A stretch of 6,821 nt of DNA from Candidatus Woesearchaeota archaeon. Its GTDB lineage: Archaea; Nanoarchaeota; Nanoarchaeia; Woesearchaeales; UBA11576. This document shows, in pieces, positions 1 to 6,207 of this stretch. Position 1 is the stretch's first letter, and the number at the start of each line of letters is the position of its first letter. Below the pieces are notes generated by a model. It did not search any database. It had not been told where the DNA came from and worked only from the letters and a program-made list of their open reading frames with translations. Location: positions 318-7,138 of the forward strand of contig DUGW01000195.1 in assembly GCA_013331125.1 (NCBI GenBank). The letters are read 5' to 3'. The position numbers and the translations under genes were made by a program.

Positions 1-186
1 ACATACATAGAGAAGACAAAAGAAGACCCGGAACAGCTCTACAGGTTCATAATACTCAATACGGCAAGGGTGCTACACGACAACCTGAAAGAAATCGGGA
101 AGATACCCCAGAAAAACATGGATGCTTTCAAGACGCTGCTGAATGACGAGAAGATGATACGCATACTGAAAGATCAATCTGTATAG
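1..186 (+). CDS. C-terminal part of an unrecognised protein (5' end outside window)
   Basis: An open frame runs from the first base of the window to a TAG stop at 184-186 and encodes the last 61 residues of a protein. The visible part is rich in Lys, Glu, Asp and Ile/Leu, looks wholly alpha-helical, and has no cysteines, no membrane segment and no motif I recognise (it begins TYIEKTKEDPEQ and ends RILKDQSV). Base use is purine-rich with ata and aag codons, like the large gene further along the same strand, which supports it being real coding. Its last 13 bases overlap the 3' end of the convergent minus-strand gene. No terminator-like T-run follows. A cytoplasmic protein is likely; the function cannot be told from this fragment. 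Confidence 0.7.
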   Translation, partial: TYIEKTKEDPEQLYRFIILNTARVLHDNLKEIGKIPQKNMDAFKTLLNDEKMIRILKDQSV

Positions 187-869
187 CAATACTCATTGGC
201 TGATGAAGTAGTGATACCATTGCTGCCATGACTGCCGTCACATCCTGAAGAATAATGGTCGCTGGCGTGACAACGCACGGCCTTGAATTCTGCATCTATG
301 ACATCGTGATGGTGCTTGGCCTGAAGACCCAGACTGCCTGACTCCTTCACCTCCTCAACCTCGAGATCATTCTTATGCCAGTAGATCGGACCAAGATCCT
401 CGATGTCCTCATCATTCTCACCATAAAGAAGTTCCCCACCACTGTTGAAGTGGTTACCGGCACAACAAGTATAAAGGTGGTCGGAAACCTCGCAGGTAAA
501 GCCTGCCAATTCATCAGTATTGATGTTTATCGGCACATAATGATCATCCGGAATCCCGCGGGTGAGAGCCTTAGTTTTCACAAAGTCCTGGAACTTGAAC
601 TGGAGGGTGACGCCGCGAGAGGAGACACAATCAGACCCGCCATGAGTGAAATGCAGATTGGTGATGACCATAGTATTACCGTCGTTGAAACCCACGCACC
701 TACCATCATCATCGATTTGAGACCTTTCCCAAATCTTTGTACTCCCAAGCACAGGAGTAGCAGAAAGGGCAAAAGAGAGCAAACCCATGTAGACAAGACC
801 TTTCTTAGCAGAGCTGCCAGACTCATCAAGAAAAAAATCAGCCAGCCTCTTCTTCAGTTCAGGCAACAC
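174..869 (-). CDS. Membrane-anchored or secreted cysteine-rich protein, family not recognised
   Basis: Predicted protein of 231 residues if translation begins at the GTG at 867-869. That start has a perfect GGAGGTG ribosome-binding site 8 nt upstream and overlaps the preceding gene's stop by 11 nt. ATG codons at 908 and 911 would add 13-14 residues, but their purine tract (AGAGG) abuts the start and they overlap the upstream gene by 50 nt or more. From the GTG, a short charged N-terminus (ELKKRLADFF) is followed by one hydrophobic segment at about residues 24-42, which could be an anchor or a signal peptide. The remaining ~185 residues have eight cysteines (58, 81, 126, 135, 136, 200, 210, 228), an acidic stretch near 150-175, a HHH at 186-188 and a Gly/Ser-rich tail. 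The even cysteine count outside the hydrophobic segment suggests disulfides in an extracellular domain (inference). I know no family match. It is the second gene of a two-gene operon. Confidence 0.72.
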   Translation of the reverse strand: MLPELKKRLADFFLDESGSSAKKGLVYMGLLSFALSATPVLGSTKIWERSQIDDDGRCVGFNDGNTMVITNLHFTHGGSDCVSSRGVTLQFKFQDFVKTKALTRGIPDDHYVPININTDELAGFTCEVSDHLYTCCAGNHFNSGGELLYGENDEDIEDLGPIYWHKNDLEVEEVKESGSLGLQAKHHHDVIDAEFKAVRCHASDHYSSGCDGSHGSNGITTSSANEYCYTD

Positions 870-1977
870 CTGAAATACACCTCCAATAAGCAAAATCCAA
901 TCCTTCATCATCCTCTGACTGGCGACTATAAAAATGTTTGTATAGTCTTGCAAAATCGGATAGGTAACCAACAGAGGAGCCTTGAGCATAATCAAGAACC
1001 TGCCTGCAAGTAAAACCTTTCTTCCACACCAGGTCCTGAGAAAGATCATAGAAACACATCAACTTCTGGAAATCCTGAAGGGTCTGGCCGGGAGAAACCC
1101 ATCCGACAGTTCCAGGAGTAAAATTCCTGGCAGCATAACTGGTCTCACAGAAAGGCACGACAGAATCCAGATCGTTTATGATCTCTTTATTACAATCGTA
1201 CCGTTCGGCTGCACCAGACATCAGATTGCAGATCTTTCTGTCAGAACGGTCAACAGCCACCATGAGAAGGCAGGAAGCGTTCTCTGACCCGTAGATGTCA
1301 CAGAAATCCGCATCCAGAGATGCCTTGTTCAGCGCATAGTATACATCCAAGCAGGAAACAGACCCGTCACAGAGGGAAGGGTCATTTCTAGATGAGAACT
1401 GGGCAACGACATCAGACTGGCACTGCTCCCTCAAAGCGCGAGATACTCTGCGACACTCGGCGAAATCCAGATCCTTCACTGCCTGATCAGAATAACATAC
1501 GTCACCAGGAAGACCCATGATTCGTTGGAAGAAGCAGTAGTCAGTCTCCCAGATACTACCTGTACAATAATAATACTTGTTATGGTCCTTTACATGCTTA
1601 CAAGCAGAGGTGTCGTTGGTCTTTGACGCGTAGAGAAGGACCTCATTATCAGACATACCTTCAAAAGTCACAATTTTCTCGACTTTCTGGACCTCTTCAA
1701 CATACTTGACTGTCTGGGTTATCTTGAAATAAGCGAAGACCGCTGCAGCGGCGATTATTAGGACAATGATAATACCATAGACAATCATATTGGTCTTAGG
1801 CTGCTTGCGGAGATGGGGCTTCACGCGGAAGACATACTCAGCAGCCTCTTCAATCGCTTCGATAGGATGACCAGCATCTGCCAATGCGCGCTTGACCTTC
1901 TTCAGGTCAACACCCTTCTCAAGATGCTGCTCAATATAAGAAATGACATTCTCATTAGGCTTCTTATTACCTGCCAT
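859..1977 (-). CDS. Single-pass membrane protein with N-terminal helical module and 16-cysteine outer domain
   Basis: Protein of 372 residues starting at the ATG at 1975-1977, which has an AGAGGT ribosome-binding site 4 nt upstream and a TATA box at a sensible distance. The open frame continues upstream to 2085, but that extension would run through both divergent promoters, so I reject it. Residues 8-50 form a small helical module with a KGVDLKKVKRALADAGHP core. From memory, similar modules sit at the N-terminus of hypothetical membrane proteins of DPANN archaea. After a basic stretch comes a transmembrane segment at about 64-84 (MIVYGIIIVLIIAAAAVFAY). The remaining ~288 residues contain 16 cysteines, often in DxC, SxC or YxC settings spaced about 8-25 residues apart, which suggests a repeated disulfide-stabilised helical domain outside the cell. 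The positive residues before the segment place the N-terminus in the cytoplasm. The next gene begins within its last codons, so the two are probably co-translated. No enzymatic motif is visible and the function is unknown. Confidence 0.85.
   Translation of the reverse strand: MAGNKKPNENVISYIEQHLEKGVDLKKVKRALADAGHPIEAIEEAAEYVFRVKPHLRKQPKTNMIVYGIIIVLIIAAAAVFAYFKITQTVKYVEEVQKVEKIVTFEGMSDNEVLLYASKTNDTSACKHVKDHNKYYYCTGSIWETDYCFFQRIMGLPGDVCYSDQAVKDLDFAECRRVSRALREQCQSDVVAQFSSRNDPSLCDGSVSCLDVYYALNKASLDADFCDIYGSENASCLLMVAVDRSDRKICNLMSGAAERYDCNKEIINDLDSVVPFCETSYAARNFTPGTVGWVSPGQTLQDFQKLMCFYDLSQDLVWKKGFTCRQVLDYAQGSSVGYLSDFARLYKHFYSRQSEDDEGLDFAYWRCISGVA
878..884 (-). promoter_or_regulatory. Ribosome-binding site GGAGGTG that decides the start of the second cysteine-rich gene
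   Basis: On the minus strand the sequence GGAGGTG lies 8 nt before a GTG codon at 867-869, inside the last codons of the upstream gene. It is a full-length match to the usual archaeal anti-Shine-Dalgarno consensus and the strongest such site I found in the window. It favours the GTG start over the upstream ATG codons at 908, 911 and 1049, and implies translational coupling of the two genes. Confidence 0.65.
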
Positions 1978-1981
1978 AGGG

Positions 1982-2027
1982 ACCTCTTTTTGATAGAAAG
2001 ACAACATATAAAGCGCATTTATAAAGG
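1982..2027 (-). promoter_or_regulatory. Promoter and ribosome-binding site of the cysteine-rich operon
   Basis: Reading the minus strand, CCTTTATAAATGCG at 2014-2027 carries a good archaeal TATA box (TTTATAAA at 2018-2025). Transcription would be expected near 1996, giving a leader of roughly 19 nt that contains AGAGGT at 1982-1987, 4 nt before the ATG. A second AT-rich element (CTTTATAT, 2005-2012) lies closer to the gene. It would put the transcript start at about the ribosome-binding site, so I consider it less likely. Confidence 0.55.
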
Positions 2028-2049
2028 TTTCTTTAAGATTGACAAAGAT

Positions 2050-2060
2050 ACTTAAATAAA
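2050..2060 (+). promoter_or_regulatory. TATA box for the radical SAM-glycosyltransferase gene; probable leaderless transcript
   Basis: The sequence ACTTAAATAAA contains a TATA-like CTTAAATA at 2051-2058, centred about 24-25 bp before the ATG at 2079. In archaea transcription begins about 25 bp downstream of the TATA box, so the mRNA would start at or next to the start codon. There is no convincing ribosome-binding site at normal spacing; an AAAGAG tract directly abuts the ATG. This fits leaderless initiation. Confidence 0.5.
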
Positions 2061-2078
2061 AAGAGCTTAAACAAAGAG

Positions 2079-4220
2079 ATGGCAAAAAGAGCAGAGATAA
2101 GTCTGGGAAGGTTATGCAACAACAACTGCGTATTCTGCCTGAAGGAAGAAGGTGAACCCGCAGTTGTGGAAAAAGAAATCATCTTCAGGCGTCTTGAGGA
2201 ATTCGAGAGAAACGGGATAACTGAAGTGCAGTTCACGGGCGGAGAACCAACAATAAGAAAAGACCTTTTCGATATAATCGACCACGCAAAAAGACTCGGA
2301 TTAAAAGTGCATCTGCAGACAAACGGACGGGCATTCTATTACAAGTCATTCGCGAAAAGGGTATGCGAACAGGGAGTGGAATCATTCCTGATCAGCCTAC
2401 ACGCACACACACCCGAACTATACGAAAGGCTGTGCGGAACAAAGGGTCATGAACAGGTGATAGTGGGCATAAGAAACCTTCTTGAGCTGAAACAGAATGT
2501 TGTGATCAATTGCGTATTGTCAAAAGACAACATAGGATACGCAGAAGAGATAGCAAAACATCATGCAAGACTCGGAGCTGAACACCTACAGTTCGGATGG
2601 GTAACACCGAAAGGGAGGGCGCTGAAGAACTTCGAAAGCGTGGTGCCAAAGTTTGATGAAAGCATCCATCACCTCCTGAAGGCGATCGACTGGCTAGATG
2701 AGAACCATAAAGGAACACTGAACATCCTAGGTATACCGCAATGCATACTCGGAAAAAGATCATTCTTCAAAGCAGAAGAGTATGAAGGACAGGTCATCCT
2801 CAAGAACGGCGAAGCCAAGGAAATAAACAGGGACGGCGCGCTGCAGAACAAGACAAAACCAGAAAAATGCAGAAAATGTGTTTATGATCAAAGATGCGAG
2901 GGCCTGTTCGCCGAATATGTGAAGAGACATGGAACAGAAGAAATCAGGCCGGCTGAAGAACCGCTGCTGAAAGTGCTGCTCGTCGCCGGTTATCACCCAG
3001 AGAAGGACACTGACGAAATACCAAATTACGGAGCAAACAGGGTGACAAACGAACTGTTACTGGCACTGGAAAAAAGCGAGATGATTGACAAAGTCGTCTA
3101 TATTGTCGGTGCTGACAGATACAGAAAGAAGAAGGAACTTCAGAACGGGCGGGTCAAGATGTGCCTTGACAGCATGACGCAAAGCGTGGCAAAAAAATAC
3201 GAAACAGACGTGGTCGCCTGCTATTGTATACTCAGACAATTCTCTGAGAGACTAAAAGATTTCGGGTTCAAGAAGATAATGCTGATACACTCGCAGGACG
3301 CGCCAGACATACTCGAGGTATACGGCAGATACATATTCGAATGGAACAAAAAGAACTCCTGGTGGATAAGCCCCAGCGAAGCCGGCAAAGAGATAGCGAT
3401 GAACATATTCCGCGAATTCGAGAGACACAAAGGGGGGAACTATGACCACAGGATCAAAGTCATACCTTGGGGTATAGGCCCCGTTGCAGAGAGAAAAAAA
3501 TCCCCTGACAAGATAAGACTCCTTTACCTGGGAAGGCTGGACAGAAGATACAAACTGGACATAATCCCGCTGATCAAGACATTCAGAGAACTGCAGAAAA
3601 AATACCCCGACATCGAACTACACCTAGCAGGAAAGATGGCCAAATGGGAAGAGAAAAACCTAGGAAGAGAACTCACAAAAGGGATAGGATACTACGGAGA
3701 GATAGCCGAGAAACACAAAATGGAATTCATAAGAAGACACGACATGCTGATATCGCCGGTGAACTCAATACAAGAGACGTTCGGGGTGACGCTGATAGAG
3801 GCGGCAAGCCAGGGACTCGACGCGATAGGGACAGACTGGACTGGATACAATGAGATACTGAAAGAGGAAAAGCTGATAAAAACCAAAAAAAGGACGCCAG
3901 ATGTTGGCCTGCCTGTAGGAAAGGAAAAATTCCCAGAGTTCTACGCTGTCGCAGAGAGGATACGAGAAGGAATAGAGATAGACTGGACAGACTGCCAGAA
4001 AAAACTCGAGAAAGCGATTGCTGACGCCAGGGATGGAAAAAGGCCCGACCCGCTGAAGCATGGAATAAAGAATTACCTGTGGAACAACATCGTGAAAGAA
4101 CATGAAAAATTATGGTTAATGAGAGACGATCAAAAAGAAGACAAGACAAGACCATACATCCCAGACCTGACCATCCCTGCCAGCCTGTTCTTCATCACAA
4201 CTCAGCACAGACGGGCATGA
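2079..4220 (+). CDS. Radical SAM enzyme fused to a GT4-type glycosyltransferase
   Basis: Single 713-residue open frame joining two enzymes. Residues 1 to about 240 are a radical SAM domain: the cluster motif is C13-x3-C17-x2-C20 and the SAM-binding GGEP motif is at 54-57 (FTGGEPT). A second cysteine motif, C264-x2-C267-x5-C273, is followed by a Gly-x-x-x-Tyr-like tail and RPAEEP at 290-295. This resembles the normal end of stand-alone radical SAM proteins with an auxiliary iron-sulfur site. The next residues (KVLLVAGYHP, from 298) begin a GT-B fold glycosyltransferase with its N-terminal Rossmann domain to about 470. The donor-binding half has GRLDRRYKLD at 485-494 (likely phosphate-binding Arg and Lys) and the GT4 EX7E signature E566-E574 (ETFGVTLIEA). 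The protein is cytoplasmic, with no signal or membrane segment. GT4 enzymes are retaining and use nucleotide-sugar donors; neither substrate can be assigned here. No start codon with a ribosome-binding site occurs at the junction, so this reads as a true fusion. Its last 26 bases overlap the convergent lipoprotein gene. Confidence 0.93.
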   Translation: MAKRAEISLGRLCNNNCVFCLKEEGEPAVVEKEIIFRRLEEFERNGITEVQFTGGEPTIRKDLFDIIDHAKRLGLKVHLQTNGRAFYYKSFAKRVCEQGVESFLISLHAHTPELYERLCGTKGHEQVIVGIRNLLELKQNVVINCVLSKDNIGYAEEIAKHHARLGAEHLQFGWVTPKGRALKNFESVVPKFDESIHHLLKAIDWLDENHKGTLNILGIPQCILGKRSFFKAEEYEGQVILKNGEAKEINRDGALQNKTKPEKCRKCVYDQRCEGLFAEYVKRHGTEEIRPAEEPLLKVLLVAGYHPEKDTDEIPNYGANRVTNELLLALEKSEMIDKVVYIVGADRYRKKKELQNGRVKMCLDSMTQSVAKKYETDVVACYCILRQFSERLKDFGFKKIMLIHSQDAPDILEVYGRYIFEWNKKNSWWISPSEAGKEIAMNIFREFERHKGGNYDHRIKVIPWGIGPVAERKKSPDKIRLLYLGRLDRRYKLDIIPLIKTFRELQKKYPDIELHLAGKMAKWEEKNLGRELTKGIGYYGEIAEKHKMEFIRRHDMLISPVNSIQETFGVTLIEAASQGLDAIGTDWTGYNEILKEEKLIKTKKRTPDVGLPVGKEKFPEFYAVAERIREGIEIDWTDCQKKLEKAIADARDGKRPDPLKHGIKNYLWNNIVKEHEKLWLMRDDQKEDKTRPYIPDLTIPASLFFITTQHRRA

Positions 4221-4548
4221 CATCTATACCAGACTCGCCCATCGGAAGCTCAAAAGAGAACTGGGCAGGCTTTGACGCGCCCGGCTCAAGAATGCCGAGA
4301 GAGCCCTTCTTCTTGAAACCCTCTGTCTCGTGATCGACAACCAAGAGGAGCTGACAGTCAAGGGAAAAAGGTTCCTGGTTCTTGACGATGAAAGAGAGCT
4401 TCGTCATCGTGTTGTTTGTCTTCTCATTCAAAACATCAGACTCTGAAAGGTTGTAGATGGCGACAGCATACTGCCTCTCCTGCTTCTGAGGGGCACAGGC
4501 CAGAAGAAAGATGAAAAGAACAAAAAGTGCGAATATGAAAAATCTCAT
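4195..4548 (-). CDS. Small predicted lipoprotein with an Ig-like beta-sandwich domain
   Basis: Protein of 117 residues. The N-terminus is a classic lipoprotein signal: Arg2, a very hydrophobic stretch at 3-17, and a lipobox ending Leu-Ala-Cys at 16-18 (FLLACAPQK), so Cys18 would be lipidated and the ~100-residue mature part would lie outside the membrane. The mature region is predicted to be mostly beta strands (TKLSFIVKNQEPFSLDC, ILEPGASKPAQFSFELP). That pattern is like the FxLyD/CARDB type of small beta-sandwich, but this is fold-level resemblance only. Cys65 and Cys114 could form a disulfide. It starts 15 nt after the Rpp30 stop, so both are probably on one mRNA. No good ribosome-binding site is present; GAGGT is 17 nt away, and the ATG sits in the loop of a small inverted repeat. 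The 3' end overlaps the convergent fusion gene by 26 bp. The role is unknown; a cell-surface binding protein is plausible. Confidence 0.8.
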   Translation of the reverse strand: MRFFIFALFVLFIFLLACAPQKQERQYAVAIYNLSESDVLNEKTNNTMTKLSFIVKNQEPFSLDCQLLLVVDHETEGFKKKGSLGILEPGASKPAQFSFELPMGESGIDVMPVCAEL

Positions 4549-4563: not shown

Positions 4564-5187
4564 CTACCTCTTATTAATTGTTTCCAATCGTTTAAAAACA
4601 GAGCCCAGAGAAGAGGCGGCGTCGGAAGGGTGCATACCAAGGGCCTCAAAAAAAGAAGAAAGGTCCCGGGGTGAACGGAGATGATAAGGCTTCGCTGCAA
4701 AAGAGGCTATGCAGGCAGTAAAACCGAACTTGCGCGCAAAGATGATGTTCTGGGAAAGGCGACCCATAACGATTGAGCGGCGACGGCTCGACGAGGACAA
4801 GATGTCAGAGAAACTGAAACCTATGATGATATCGTTCTTCCTGGCGAGATCCGCGTGGATATGATTAAGGCCAGAAGCCCGATGATGGATGAAATCAGAA
4901 CGGCCAGAGAACTCAAGACCGAAAAGGATGTCAGGCTTCGACTGCTCAAGGACAAGACGGATCCTGGACTGGTCAGAAGGACAACGCATGACGGTGAGGT
5001 GCTGGCCCTTATACTTGCGAATCGTCTCTTCGGTGCAGAGGACTGCAGAAAAGAGCTTCAATGAGGTCTTGACCTGCGGAGGAGGCGTGGGCCTATCATA
5101 GACAAAGCAGAGCCCCTGAAGACCAAGACGCTCAGCAAGAGCTATGAATGCGTTCTCGTCGTTTTTGGGAAATACAAGATCAATCAT
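4564..5187 (-). CDS. rnp3: Ribonuclease P protein component 3 (archaeal Rpp30, p30 subunit)
   Basis: Protein of 207 residues, about the usual length of archaeal Rpp30. It is a PHP-like TIM-barrel subunit of RNase P, the ribonucleoprotein that removes 5' leaders from pre-tRNA; with Pop5 it supports the catalytic domain of the RNA. I recognise the family from the N-terminal IDLVFPKNDENAF with a following ALAERLGLQGL helix, the central SGLNHIHADLARKNDIIIGF (105-124) followed by SFSDIL (125-130), and the C-terminal AAKPYHLRSPRDLSSFFEAL region (164-183) ending in the usual LG. Rpp30 genes often sit near ribosomal, Pop5 or exosome genes; here the neighbours are a second radical SAM gene upstream and a lipoprotein downstream. 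The start at 5187 is the first ATG and lies about 25 bp after a TATA box, so a leaderless mRNA is likely. There is no ribosome-binding site. The call is from remembered family sequence, not a search. Confidence 0.85.
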   Translation of the reverse strand: MIDLVFPKNDENAFIALAERLGLQGLCFVYDRPTPPPQVKTSLKLFSAVLCTEETIRKYKGQHLTVMRCPSDQSRIRLVLEQSKPDILFGLEFSGRSDFIHHRASGLNHIHADLARKNDIIIGFSFSDILSSSSRRRSIVMGRLSQNIIFARKFGFTACIASFAAKPYHLRSPRDLSSFFEALGMHPSDAASSLGSVFKRLETINKR

Positions 5188-5235: not shown

Positions 5236-6207
5236 TCAAATCTCTCCCTTAAATGGGAAAAATGGGTCCATGTCAAGCTGATCTGCGCAATGGCGACAGA
5301 GCCTGATAGAGGAAAGCTTCCCTTCAGCGTGGAGCTGCCTGAGCATCTGCATAGGCTTGCCATTCCAAACATCAACCAAAGACTCCCTGTTCAGGTCACC
5401 AAGGACGCAGAGACCATCATAATCATAACAACAGGGAACAACCCGCCCATCCCAAAGGACAGTCAAAGATGACCAGGGAAAAGAACAACGCCTTGCTGCC
5501 ACGGGTCTTGAGGAGCCAATGCTAAAAGAGTTTATCAAAGAGTCATCGCCGTTCCATCTGGAGAATGGTTTTATCTTCACAGAGTCGACGCCAAGAGAGA
5601 GCCATTTCCTCTTGAACTCATCCACGTTGCCTTCAGTCCCTTTCATCAGGATCATCTGGACCTTTATGTGTGGCTTTCGAAGACTGTTCTTCCTCTTATA
5701 ATCAACAAGCTTCAGGACATTCCTCTCAGCCAGAGCAAGATCTGCATTTGGTCCCCTGATGCCCTTGAACTGCGCATCGGACAATCCGTCTACCGAAACC
5801 TCAAGAAGCGACAAACCACCATCACAGACAGCCTTTATCCTATCGTCAGTCAACTCTCCAGGGTTGATCGACATGCCGACGACCAAACCCTTGCCTTTAA
5901 GGTATGAAAGGATGGGACCTAATTGCGGGTGAAGGAGAGACTCACCAAAATGGTGAAGACGAAAAGGACGGTAACAGCCACTCGCAGAGGTTATCGAAAC
6001 AAGCTCATCAACAATCTTCCTGAACAGGCCAAGAGAGATATATCCCACTTCTCTGGACATCTTCTTACGAGGACACATGACACAACTCATGGTGCAGGCA
6101 TTCGTAAGCTCAATCTGACAGATGCTGGGGGATGTCTGTGACTCTATGGCGCCTTCCTTGAACTCTGCAAGCTGCTTGAGAAACTCTGAATCGTGAGGGC
6201 CAGCCAT
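5236..6207 (-). CDS. Radical SAM protein with SPASM-like C-terminal iron-sulfur domain
   Basis: Protein of 323 residues. An N-terminal helical segment (~1-28) precedes the radical SAM barrel: cluster motif C38-x3-C42-x2-C45 in ELTNACTMSCVMCP, and HHFGESLLHP at 85-94, where most relatives have G-E-P (here Ser90 replaces the Pro). The C-terminal part has the SPASM-like arrangement: C241 in RRCSFPW, a strand ending in DGRVVPCC (C259, C260), LGDLNRESLVDVWNG at 269-283, and C304-x2-C307 near the end. These would hold one auxiliary 4Fe-4S cluster. SPASM radical SAM proteins modify peptides, proteins or small molecules through a 5'-deoxyadenosyl radical; the substrate here is unknown and no precursor peptide is seen nearby. 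It is cytoplasmic. It starts 4 bp after the DUF218 stop, so it is the last gene of a tight operon. There is only a weak purine tract (GATAAG) before the ATG. Confidence 0.9.
   Translation of the reverse strand: MAGPHDSEFLKQLAEFKEGAIESQTSPSICQIELTNACTMSCVMCPRKKMSREVGYISLGLFRKIVDELVSITSASGCYRPFRLHHFGESLLHPQLGPILSYLKGKGLVVGMSINPGELTDDRIKAVCDGGLSLLEVSVDGLSDAQFKGIRGPNADLALAERNVLKLVDYKRKNSLRKPHIKVQMILMKGTEGNVDEFKRKWLSLGVDSVKIKPFSRWNGDDSLINSFSIGSSRPVAARRCSFPWSSLTVLWDGRVVPCCYDYDGLCVLGDLNRESLVDVWNGKPMQMLRQLHAEGKLSSIRLCRHCADQLDMDPFFPFKGEI

Follow-up and report, generated by a model that had tools for sequence, protein, structure and literature searches.

A stretch of 6,821 nucleotides from a contig (DUGW01000195.1) of a Candidatus Woesearchaeota archaeon, hereafter the window, encodes on its forward strand (2079-4220) a protein that combines a radical S-adenosylmethionine (SAM) enzyme with a glycosyltransferase (GT) of family GT4. 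We consider it likely, with a probability of about two in three, that this protein (P0001) is a bifunctional maturase of the His-Xaa-Ser (Hxs) type in a woesearchaeal (DPANN) archaeon, which would both radical-modify and glycosylate the HxsA-like precursor encoded at 174-869. At the level of sequence, the fusion itself, the intact motifs in both halves, the relationship to Hxs and the pairing of the precursor with a membrane protein gene (orfA) are established.

The original prediction had noted one frame holding both enzymes, and this observation holds: the frame is uninterrupted over 713 codons, and among ∼5.8 billion proteins the whole architecture is found in four further ones, P0002 (50% identity), P0003 (49%), P0004 (46%), and P0005 (37%). 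The alignments span 97–99% of the query, and residues on either side of the junction are invariant across the five fusions. Searching with the GT half alone, we found P0020, a stand-alone GT4 protein by Pfam (413 amino acids) with 50% identity over 98% of this half. Its first methionine coincides with the fusion junction, which therefore marks where one complete enzyme ends and the other begins; separate proteins of ∼300 amino acids related to the radical SAM half are common. Judged by these relatives, 2079-4220 is a real fusion of two complete enzymes, as had been supposed, and this GT4-radical SAM fusion is rare.

Both halves retain the features of their families. The radical SAM half has the CX3CX2C motif and matches PF04055 with 81.5 bits (gathering score 29.5). 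The ligands of the SAM-binding cluster are C13, C17, and C20, and those of the auxiliary site are C222, C264, C267, and C273. A SPASM domain was not found in P0001 with Pfam at E ≤ 1, and a SPASM-type maturase was rejected on this ground. The GT half scores above the gathering score of PF00534, carries the E-X7-E signature and is predicted to adopt the two-domain GT-B fold; its GRLD motif presumably plays a role in the donor site. The closest folds of this half include BshA, PimA/PimB′, TarM, and the protein O-GlcNAc (O-linked N-acetylglucosamine) transferases GtfA and SdgB. GtfA, acting on serine-rich repeat adhesins, and SdgB, acting on SD-repeat proteins, are GT4 enzymes that glycosylate Ser-rich protein repeats; we know of no radical SAM fusions of such protein O-glycosylating GT4 enzymes. 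The likeness to them lies in the GT4 fold (Foldseek entries 4pqg and 7vfl, ranks 22 and 40), whereas the identity is 14–15%, and the fold likeness of the GT4 half is uninformative about its acceptor. The VIA-align list contains solely glycosyltransferases and related GT-B enzymes, as it is filled by the GT domain. The top Foldseek rows for the fusion also contain viperins, BlsE, and NifB. BlsE, viperin, and Tes are among the sequence and fold matches of the radical SAM half, and SkfB and SuiB among those to its core fold. A viperin-like defence role was rejected, as the PADLOC pVip matches reach at most 49.3 bits and are confined to the radical SAM core; a MoaA-type or sugar-modifying enzyme was rejected because, in the 25 families shown, the matches are limited to the core and stay under the curated cut-offs.

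The Hxs system, reportedly first described by Haft and Basu, has to our knowledge no determined product. Its components are represented in NCBIfam as HxsA, HxsB, HxsC, and HxsD (TIGR03976–TIGR03978, HxsA2–A4). HxsB and HxsC are called putative maturases in one article (PMC9062424). A scan of GTDB species genomes with the fusion yielded 79 loci, derived from the best 80 of 149 relatives, which match about the first 300 residues; many of these loci are tandem arrays of related radical SAM genes, and many are cut by contig ends. The alignment to HxsC (TIGR03977) spans residues 9–278 of P0001 and nearly the whole model. In three loci from related archaeal genomes (L098, L099, and L101), HxsB is above its curated cut-off of 370 bits (462, 463, and 403 bits), HxsD is at or near its cut-off of 50 (50.2, 46.6, and 52.0 bits), and there are proteins with 6–9 H-x-S triplets and an HxsA-type leader. 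To these curated models we added our own profiles for HxsB, HxsD, the A24 peptidase, orfA, the leader, GT, radical SAM, and APH, made from 2 to 10 sequences each and without curated cut-offs. With these, HxsB was found in 25 of the 79 loci, HxsD in 17, and the HxsA leader in 14, and 19 loci encode a protein with six or more H-x-S triplets. When checked against the curated HxsB cut-off, 11 of 13 genes pass; the other two are a gene in L001 that is cut by the end of the stretch (348 bits) and the HxsB-like half of a fusion in L137 (277 bits).

The five fusions group as one clade (support 0.975) in a tree built from 243 radical SAM domains. The sisters of this clade are P0014/P0015 together with the L103 domain (node support 0.983), followed by L001 and L003 (0.902). 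The tree omitted domains of at most 95 bits or spanning at most 170 model positions, as well as the loci L080–L085, L091–L096, and L102, which, except L093, repeat other loci or lack a radical SAM domain of the family; some domains enter it twice (that of the window as P0001; L036 and L099 overlap). The radical SAM gene in L103, the closest relative whose context is known, directly adjoins HxsB (433 bits), HxsD, and the A24 peptidase; its C-terminus is cut by the contig end, so that it could be a fusion or a stand-alone protein. L001 carries the cut HxsB gene, HxsD, and A24 within the same 21-kb stretch, while L003 has no Hxs marker. By its place in the tree, the fusion clade belongs to the Hxs part of the family, which as a whole is probably wider than Hxs.

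Occurrence across genomes points in the same direction. Among 371 genomes of the phylum that includes the Woesearchaeota genome of L009, HxsB is above its curated cut-off in 32. Using limits of E ≤ 1e-80 for HxsB and E ≤ 1e-25 for a match to P0001, we found HxsB in 34 genomes, a P0001 match in 23, and both in 21; that is, HxsB occurs in 21 of the 23 genomes with a match vs. 13 of the 348 without (Fisher p = 2e-23, a value that rests on related genomes and is not a tally of independent events). All 23 matches cover the radical SAM half only. The same is true for the matches at 1e-45 in 7 of 330 genomes of the order of G172, a set overlapping the 371 genomes. At 1e-50, matches occur in 1 of 87 genomes of the Diapherotrites phylum and in 3 of 34 genomes of the phylum of the Aenigmatarchaeota genome with L002.

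The candidate substrate is encoded on the reverse strand of the window. Its gene begins VLPELKKRLADFFLDESG, its start overlaps the end of orfA, and the leader of the protein reads LPELKKRLADFFLDESG... A leader profile made from ten HxsA-like proteins, without those of the window and L098, picks this precursor from the 147 frames of the window with E = 2.9e-6 (next best 1.7) and gives it E = 1.4e-4 among the 6991 open reading frames (ORFs) of the loci. A C-terminal profile from the archaeal HxsA-like proteins of L098, L120, L127, L129, and L130 gives E = 2.6e-6 (next best 0.54) with the shared core HxNxL...AxHxHx. By leave-one-out we mean these two profiles; an initial leader profile had included the window sequence. 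By the leader profile, the window precursor has an HxsA-type leader. A BLASTP search with the L098 precursor aligned mainly the leader (35% of 34 amino acids, E = 2e-5). The product of orfA is 31% identical over 273 amino acids to its counterpart beside the precursor of L098. Adjacent orfA and precursor genes are also found in L120 and L127, in the same order, and in L129 and L130. The leader and the orfA-precursor layout are as in archaeal Hxs loci, and the HxsC-type enzyme is related to proteins adjoining HxsB and HxsD. A separate observation concerns L010 (3132-4796), where a 555-amino acid protein combines an HxsA leader, ∼50 H-x-S triplets, and a further C-terminal region.

Enzymes of this kind have been joined to a second modifying domain in several ways. 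A GT4-HxsC fusion in the reversed order is encoded in an Omnitrophota locus (L015, 8810-10882), between HxsD-HxsB-HxsA and A24, where HxsB is above its cut-off with 376 bits; it is 48% identical to P0006, which is N-terminally incomplete. It has the same two activities in one chain as the window protein, and in L015 lies inside an Hxs operon. However, its GT is N-terminal and has no BLASTP alignment to the window GT beyond chance, and its radical SAM part is on a separate, distant branch of the tree. With unalignable GT4 domains and separate branches, GT4-HxsC fusion has arisen at least twice, the two being independent. In P0015 and P0014, whose radical SAM parts are sisters of the one in the window, the second modifying enzyme is at the same C-terminal place, but a kinase-like APH domain replaces the glycosyltransferase (36.5 bits in P0015 vs. 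the Pfam cut-off of 23.2; P0014 is just below with 22.0). P0003 appears to have both, as its kinase-like third part makes it look like radical SAM-GT4-kinase; the C-terminal extension of P0005 matches neither the kinase profile nor the end of P0013. Hxs loci also encode radical SAM enzymes with an APH-type kinase domain before or after the radical SAM part: two such proteins in L112 and others in L120, L129, and L130. A GT28-type domain is fused to radical SAM in the DPANN loci L009 and L117. Separate GT genes are present in L032 (GT4) and L141 (GT2 and GT4), with HxsB passing its cut-off in both. Finally, L137 (2463-6176; G508:C17) has a 682-amino acid ORF with an HxsC-type half followed by the HxsB-like half mentioned above, and beside it on the opposite strand a 554-amino acid GT2-radical SAM fusion. 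Such combinations with GT and kinase domains are what one would expect if all these enzymes act on one precursor, and they suggest that this is so. A 645-amino acid HxsC-type protein in L120, considered as a further GT fusion, actually has two radical SAM domains and SPASM.

We propose the following course of events. The HxsA-like precursor is the most likely substrate, and its leader would be recognised. The radical SAM half, with an HxsB partner, would then modify the His/Cys/Ser-rich body of the precursor, and the tethered GT4 domain would glycosylate the same chain, with Ser or Thr as the probable acceptor residues. The modified peptide may end up at the surface, partnered by the Cys-rich membrane protein that the adjacent orfA encodes. 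What we infer in this scheme is the type of each reaction, that both act on one substrate, that HxsB is required, which step comes first, which sugar is added, and that the product reaches the surface. The original prediction, in which neither the precursor nor the Hxs context had been noticed, had both reactions act on the same substrate, for example a radical-modified peptide; the Hxs link and the HxsA-like precursor make such a peptide concrete, and that it is shared by the two halves remains our proposal.

A number of observations weigh against this reading. P0001 is far below the cut-offs of the HxsC equivalog TIGR03977 (83.0 vs. 267.9 bits) and of HxsC4, NF038332 (136.5 vs. 500 bits), although the same holds for all ten relatives tested, none of which reaches either cut-off. 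The radical SAM half is probably HxsC-like in its working, yet naming it an HxsC equivalog is not warranted. Only 30 of the 79 loci have at least one Hxs marker, another 15 have the A24 peptidase only, and 34 have no marker, and even the precursors of L098, L099, and L101 score 30–42 bits, below the HxsA cut-offs of 55–65. The precursor in the window has three H-x-S triplets in 231 amino acids, vs. 6–50 in repeat-type proteins, and thus lacks the His-Xaa-Ser repeat; its score is 15.1 bits (E = 0.015) vs. the HxsA3 cut-off of 65. With three triplets, it represents a variant rather than the classical HxsA type; the precursors of L127, L129, and L130 have 1, 0, and 0 triplets. In L129 and L130, orfA and the precursor are adjacent, yet on opposite strands. 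HxsB, HxsD, and A24 were not found by Pfam or our own profiles in the 6.8-kb window, the whole contig being 7364 bases long. The window differs from the known Hxs system by the fusion of the HxsC-type enzyme to GT4, by scores below the HxsC and HxsA cut-offs, by the repeat-free precursor, and by the lack of HxsB and HxsD in the window. In the genome comparison, G170 and G226 match P0001 without HxsB, 13 genomes have HxsB without a P0001 match, and the E-value limits of the HxsB/P0001 pair test were set after earlier genome scans had been seen. The fusion was not found in any genome scanned, where every listed match is to the radical SAM half only; as in many genomes the top three candidates alone were scored, this absence is not exact. 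P0004 is missing from the profile search, probably an effect of candidate selection. As for the kinases, Pfam does not list the kinase-like part of P0003 at E ≤ 0.01, and in L130 the radical SAM part of the kinase fusion scores 26.7 bits, less than the 29.5 that Pfam requires.

These points leave room for other explanations. The radical SAM half could belong to an Hxs system while the GT glycosylates a different acceptor, for instance a lipid or some other protein, in which case the fusion would serve co-expression or scaffolding. We regard this as unlikely, though it is the strongest of the alternatives, since the sequence and fold of the GT4 domain are silent on the acceptor and its near folds range from BshA and PimA/PimB′ to TarM, GtfA, and SdgB. 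Against it, HxsC-type enzymes were joined to GT4 on at least two occasions, with the order inverted and the two GT4 domains not alignable by BLASTP beyond chance, and the reversed fusion is located between HxsA and A24 in L015. Rather less probable is a sugar-modifying pair, in which the radical SAM half alters a sugar or a nucleotide-linked substrate and the GT transfers it for glycan or lipid synthesis. The matches to BlsE, viperin, and Tes would fit it; still, the core fold matches are generic and have the peptide maturases SkfB and SuiB among them, and the HxsC-type relatives, the co-occurrence with HxsB, and the precursor all argue against it. Nothing in the window was recognised as belonging to a sugar-nucleotide or lipid gene family, so the sugar and lipid substrates that the original prediction had offered besides a peptide gain no support from the genes annotated there.

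It is improbable, too, that the fusion acts on a different Hxs-type precursor encoded elsewhere in the genome and that the 174-869 protein is not its substrate. The three triplets in 231 amino acids would agree with this, as would the presence of more than one HxsA-like gene in some loci (L010 and L142), but the orfA-precursor pair adjoins the fusion and recurs in Hxs loci. Finally, the window sequence is known from a single contig, which might raise the suspicion of an assembly artefact or read-through. This we consider negligible: the four full-length homologues come from other contigs, share invariant residues on both sides of the junction, and rule out an assembly chimera.

The bifunctional Hxs-type maturase that we prefer has further genes around it (Table 1). 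The RNase P p30 gene puts the window close to G172, whose p30 is 51% identical. In L097, the corresponding locus of G172, an orfA truncated by the contig end is followed by the genes for the small lipoprotein, RNase P, and DUF218, the same order as in the window. At the respective places, L097 lacks both the fusion and the SPASM radical SAM gene, and the 219-amino acid gene that fills the slot has no Pfam match at E ≤ 0.1; in G172 as a whole, neither a match to P0001 nor HxsB occurs at E ≤ 1e-20. An APH-type kinase lies between the lipoprotein gene and orfA in L098, and it is a relative of the kinase domains in P0014 and P0015. The three best relatives of the second radical SAM gene of the window among the ORFs searched are near HxsC-type genes, in L126, L125, and L124. 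Scans of the window with Rfam and for tRNAs gave nothing, and a search of viral contigs gave two pattern matches, neither related to the fusion.

Table 1. Coordinates of the features identified in the window.
Feature	Position	Strand	Evidence
HxsA-like precursor, 231 amino acids, GTG start, candidate substrate	174..869	-	leave-one-out leader and C-terminal core profiles
orfA, membrane protein with Cys-rich part, overlaps precursor start	859..1977	-	31% identity to L098 counterpart
HxsC-type radical SAM/GT4 fusion, 713 amino acids	2079..4220	+	full-length relatives, predicted model
Radical SAM half, residues 1–296	2079..2966	+	Pfam, tree, NCBIfam HxsC4/HxsC scores below cut-off
CX3CX2C radical SAM cluster motif, residues 13–20	2115..2138	+	cysteines kept in 240, 241, and 241 of 243 aligned domains
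Cys222, fourth cysteine of auxiliary Fe-S site	2742..2744	+	invariant in five fusions; 219 of 243 domains
CX2CX5C auxiliary Fe-S motif, residues 264–273	2868..2897	+	cysteines in 209–210 of 243 domains; gaps at this place in most of the rest
Complete GT-B, family GT4 half, residues 298–713 (fold about 297–684)	2970..4217	+	fold matches, stand-alone relative P0020
GRLD motif, residues 485–488	3531..3542	+	sequence
E-X7-E GT4 signature, residues 566–574	3774..3800	+	invariant in five fusions
Small putative lipoprotein, landmark	4195..4548	-	26–29% identity to same-place gene in L097 and L098
RNase P protein p30, archaeal landmark	4564..5187	-	HxsB at most 6 kb away in 8 of 20 genomes with both hits
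Second radical SAM/SPASM protein	5236..6207	-	Pfam; three best relatives near HxsC-type genes

Several observations were made in passing. The genes for RNase P p30 and HxsB are at most 6 kb apart on one contig in 8 of the 20 genomes that have both. The A24 prepilin-type peptidase is a frequent neighbour of HxsD and HxsB in archaeal loci (L098, L099, L101, L103, L032, L064, and others), and this adjacency suggests a role in precursor processing or a link with pili. Between HxsA and HxsC in L098 (10045-11114) there are three short consecutive ORFs, which by eye resemble pieces of one decayed radical SAM gene. The tandem arrays of radical SAM paralogues among the 79 loci are found in DPANN archaea, candidate-phyla bacteria, Elusimicrobia, and Myxococcota. 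A protein of 1168 amino acids on the Woesearchaeota contig of L009 (3998-7501, reverse strand) comprises two radical SAM stretches, a GT2 domain, and a C-terminal GT28 domain, and lies near an HxsB fragment and an HxsA repeat gene; the same locus encodes a DUF362-ferredoxin-radical SAM protein (1072-3768). Radical SAM domains of the same family are fused to DUF364 (putative heavy-metal chelation) in L004 (1191-3023) and L036 (6484-8286). In P0009, P0017, and P0018, of ∼960–990 amino acids, radical SAM is combined with a GFO/IDH/MocA oxidoreductase, according to Pfam for P0009 and to precomputed domains for the others.

In titles and the beginnings of abstracts, with most subscription journals outside the scope, no radical SAM-glycosyltransferase fusion appears in the literature on archaea or on ribosomally synthesized and post-translationally modified peptides (RiPPs), nor is such a fusion described in titles and abstract beginnings on DPANN and RiPPs. 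A survey of fused archaeal protein families includes glycosyltransferases, and the word "radical" is absent from its accessible part (PMC11237513). This suggests that, the Hxs components being already known, the fusion of an HxsC-type enzyme to GT4 is new.

A maturase with its own glycosyltransferase predicts a hexose or N-acetylhexosamine on an HxsA-type peptide, which would be visible by mass spectrometry, and provides a single-gene handle. The 32 genomes with HxsB above the cut-off place Hxs-type loci in DPANN archaea. The fusions with GT4, which arose at least twice, with kinases, and with an HxsB-like half point to one shared substrate, and the same fusions suggest that archaeal Hxs pathways regularly include a glycosylation or phosphorylation step. 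With somewhat less than even confidence, we envisage a class of surface peptides in DPANN archaea that are both radical-modified and glycosylated, and HxsC-type enzymes that have acquired a second tailoring domain several times (GT4 at either end, an APH-like kinase, or both in P0003). One chain would then radical-modify and subsequently glycosylate or phosphorylate the precursor, with the radical step possibly creating the site of sugar attachment. Together with the gene for a likely target peptide beside it, the fusion protein of the window suggests that an archaeal peptide carries both a radical modification and sugars.

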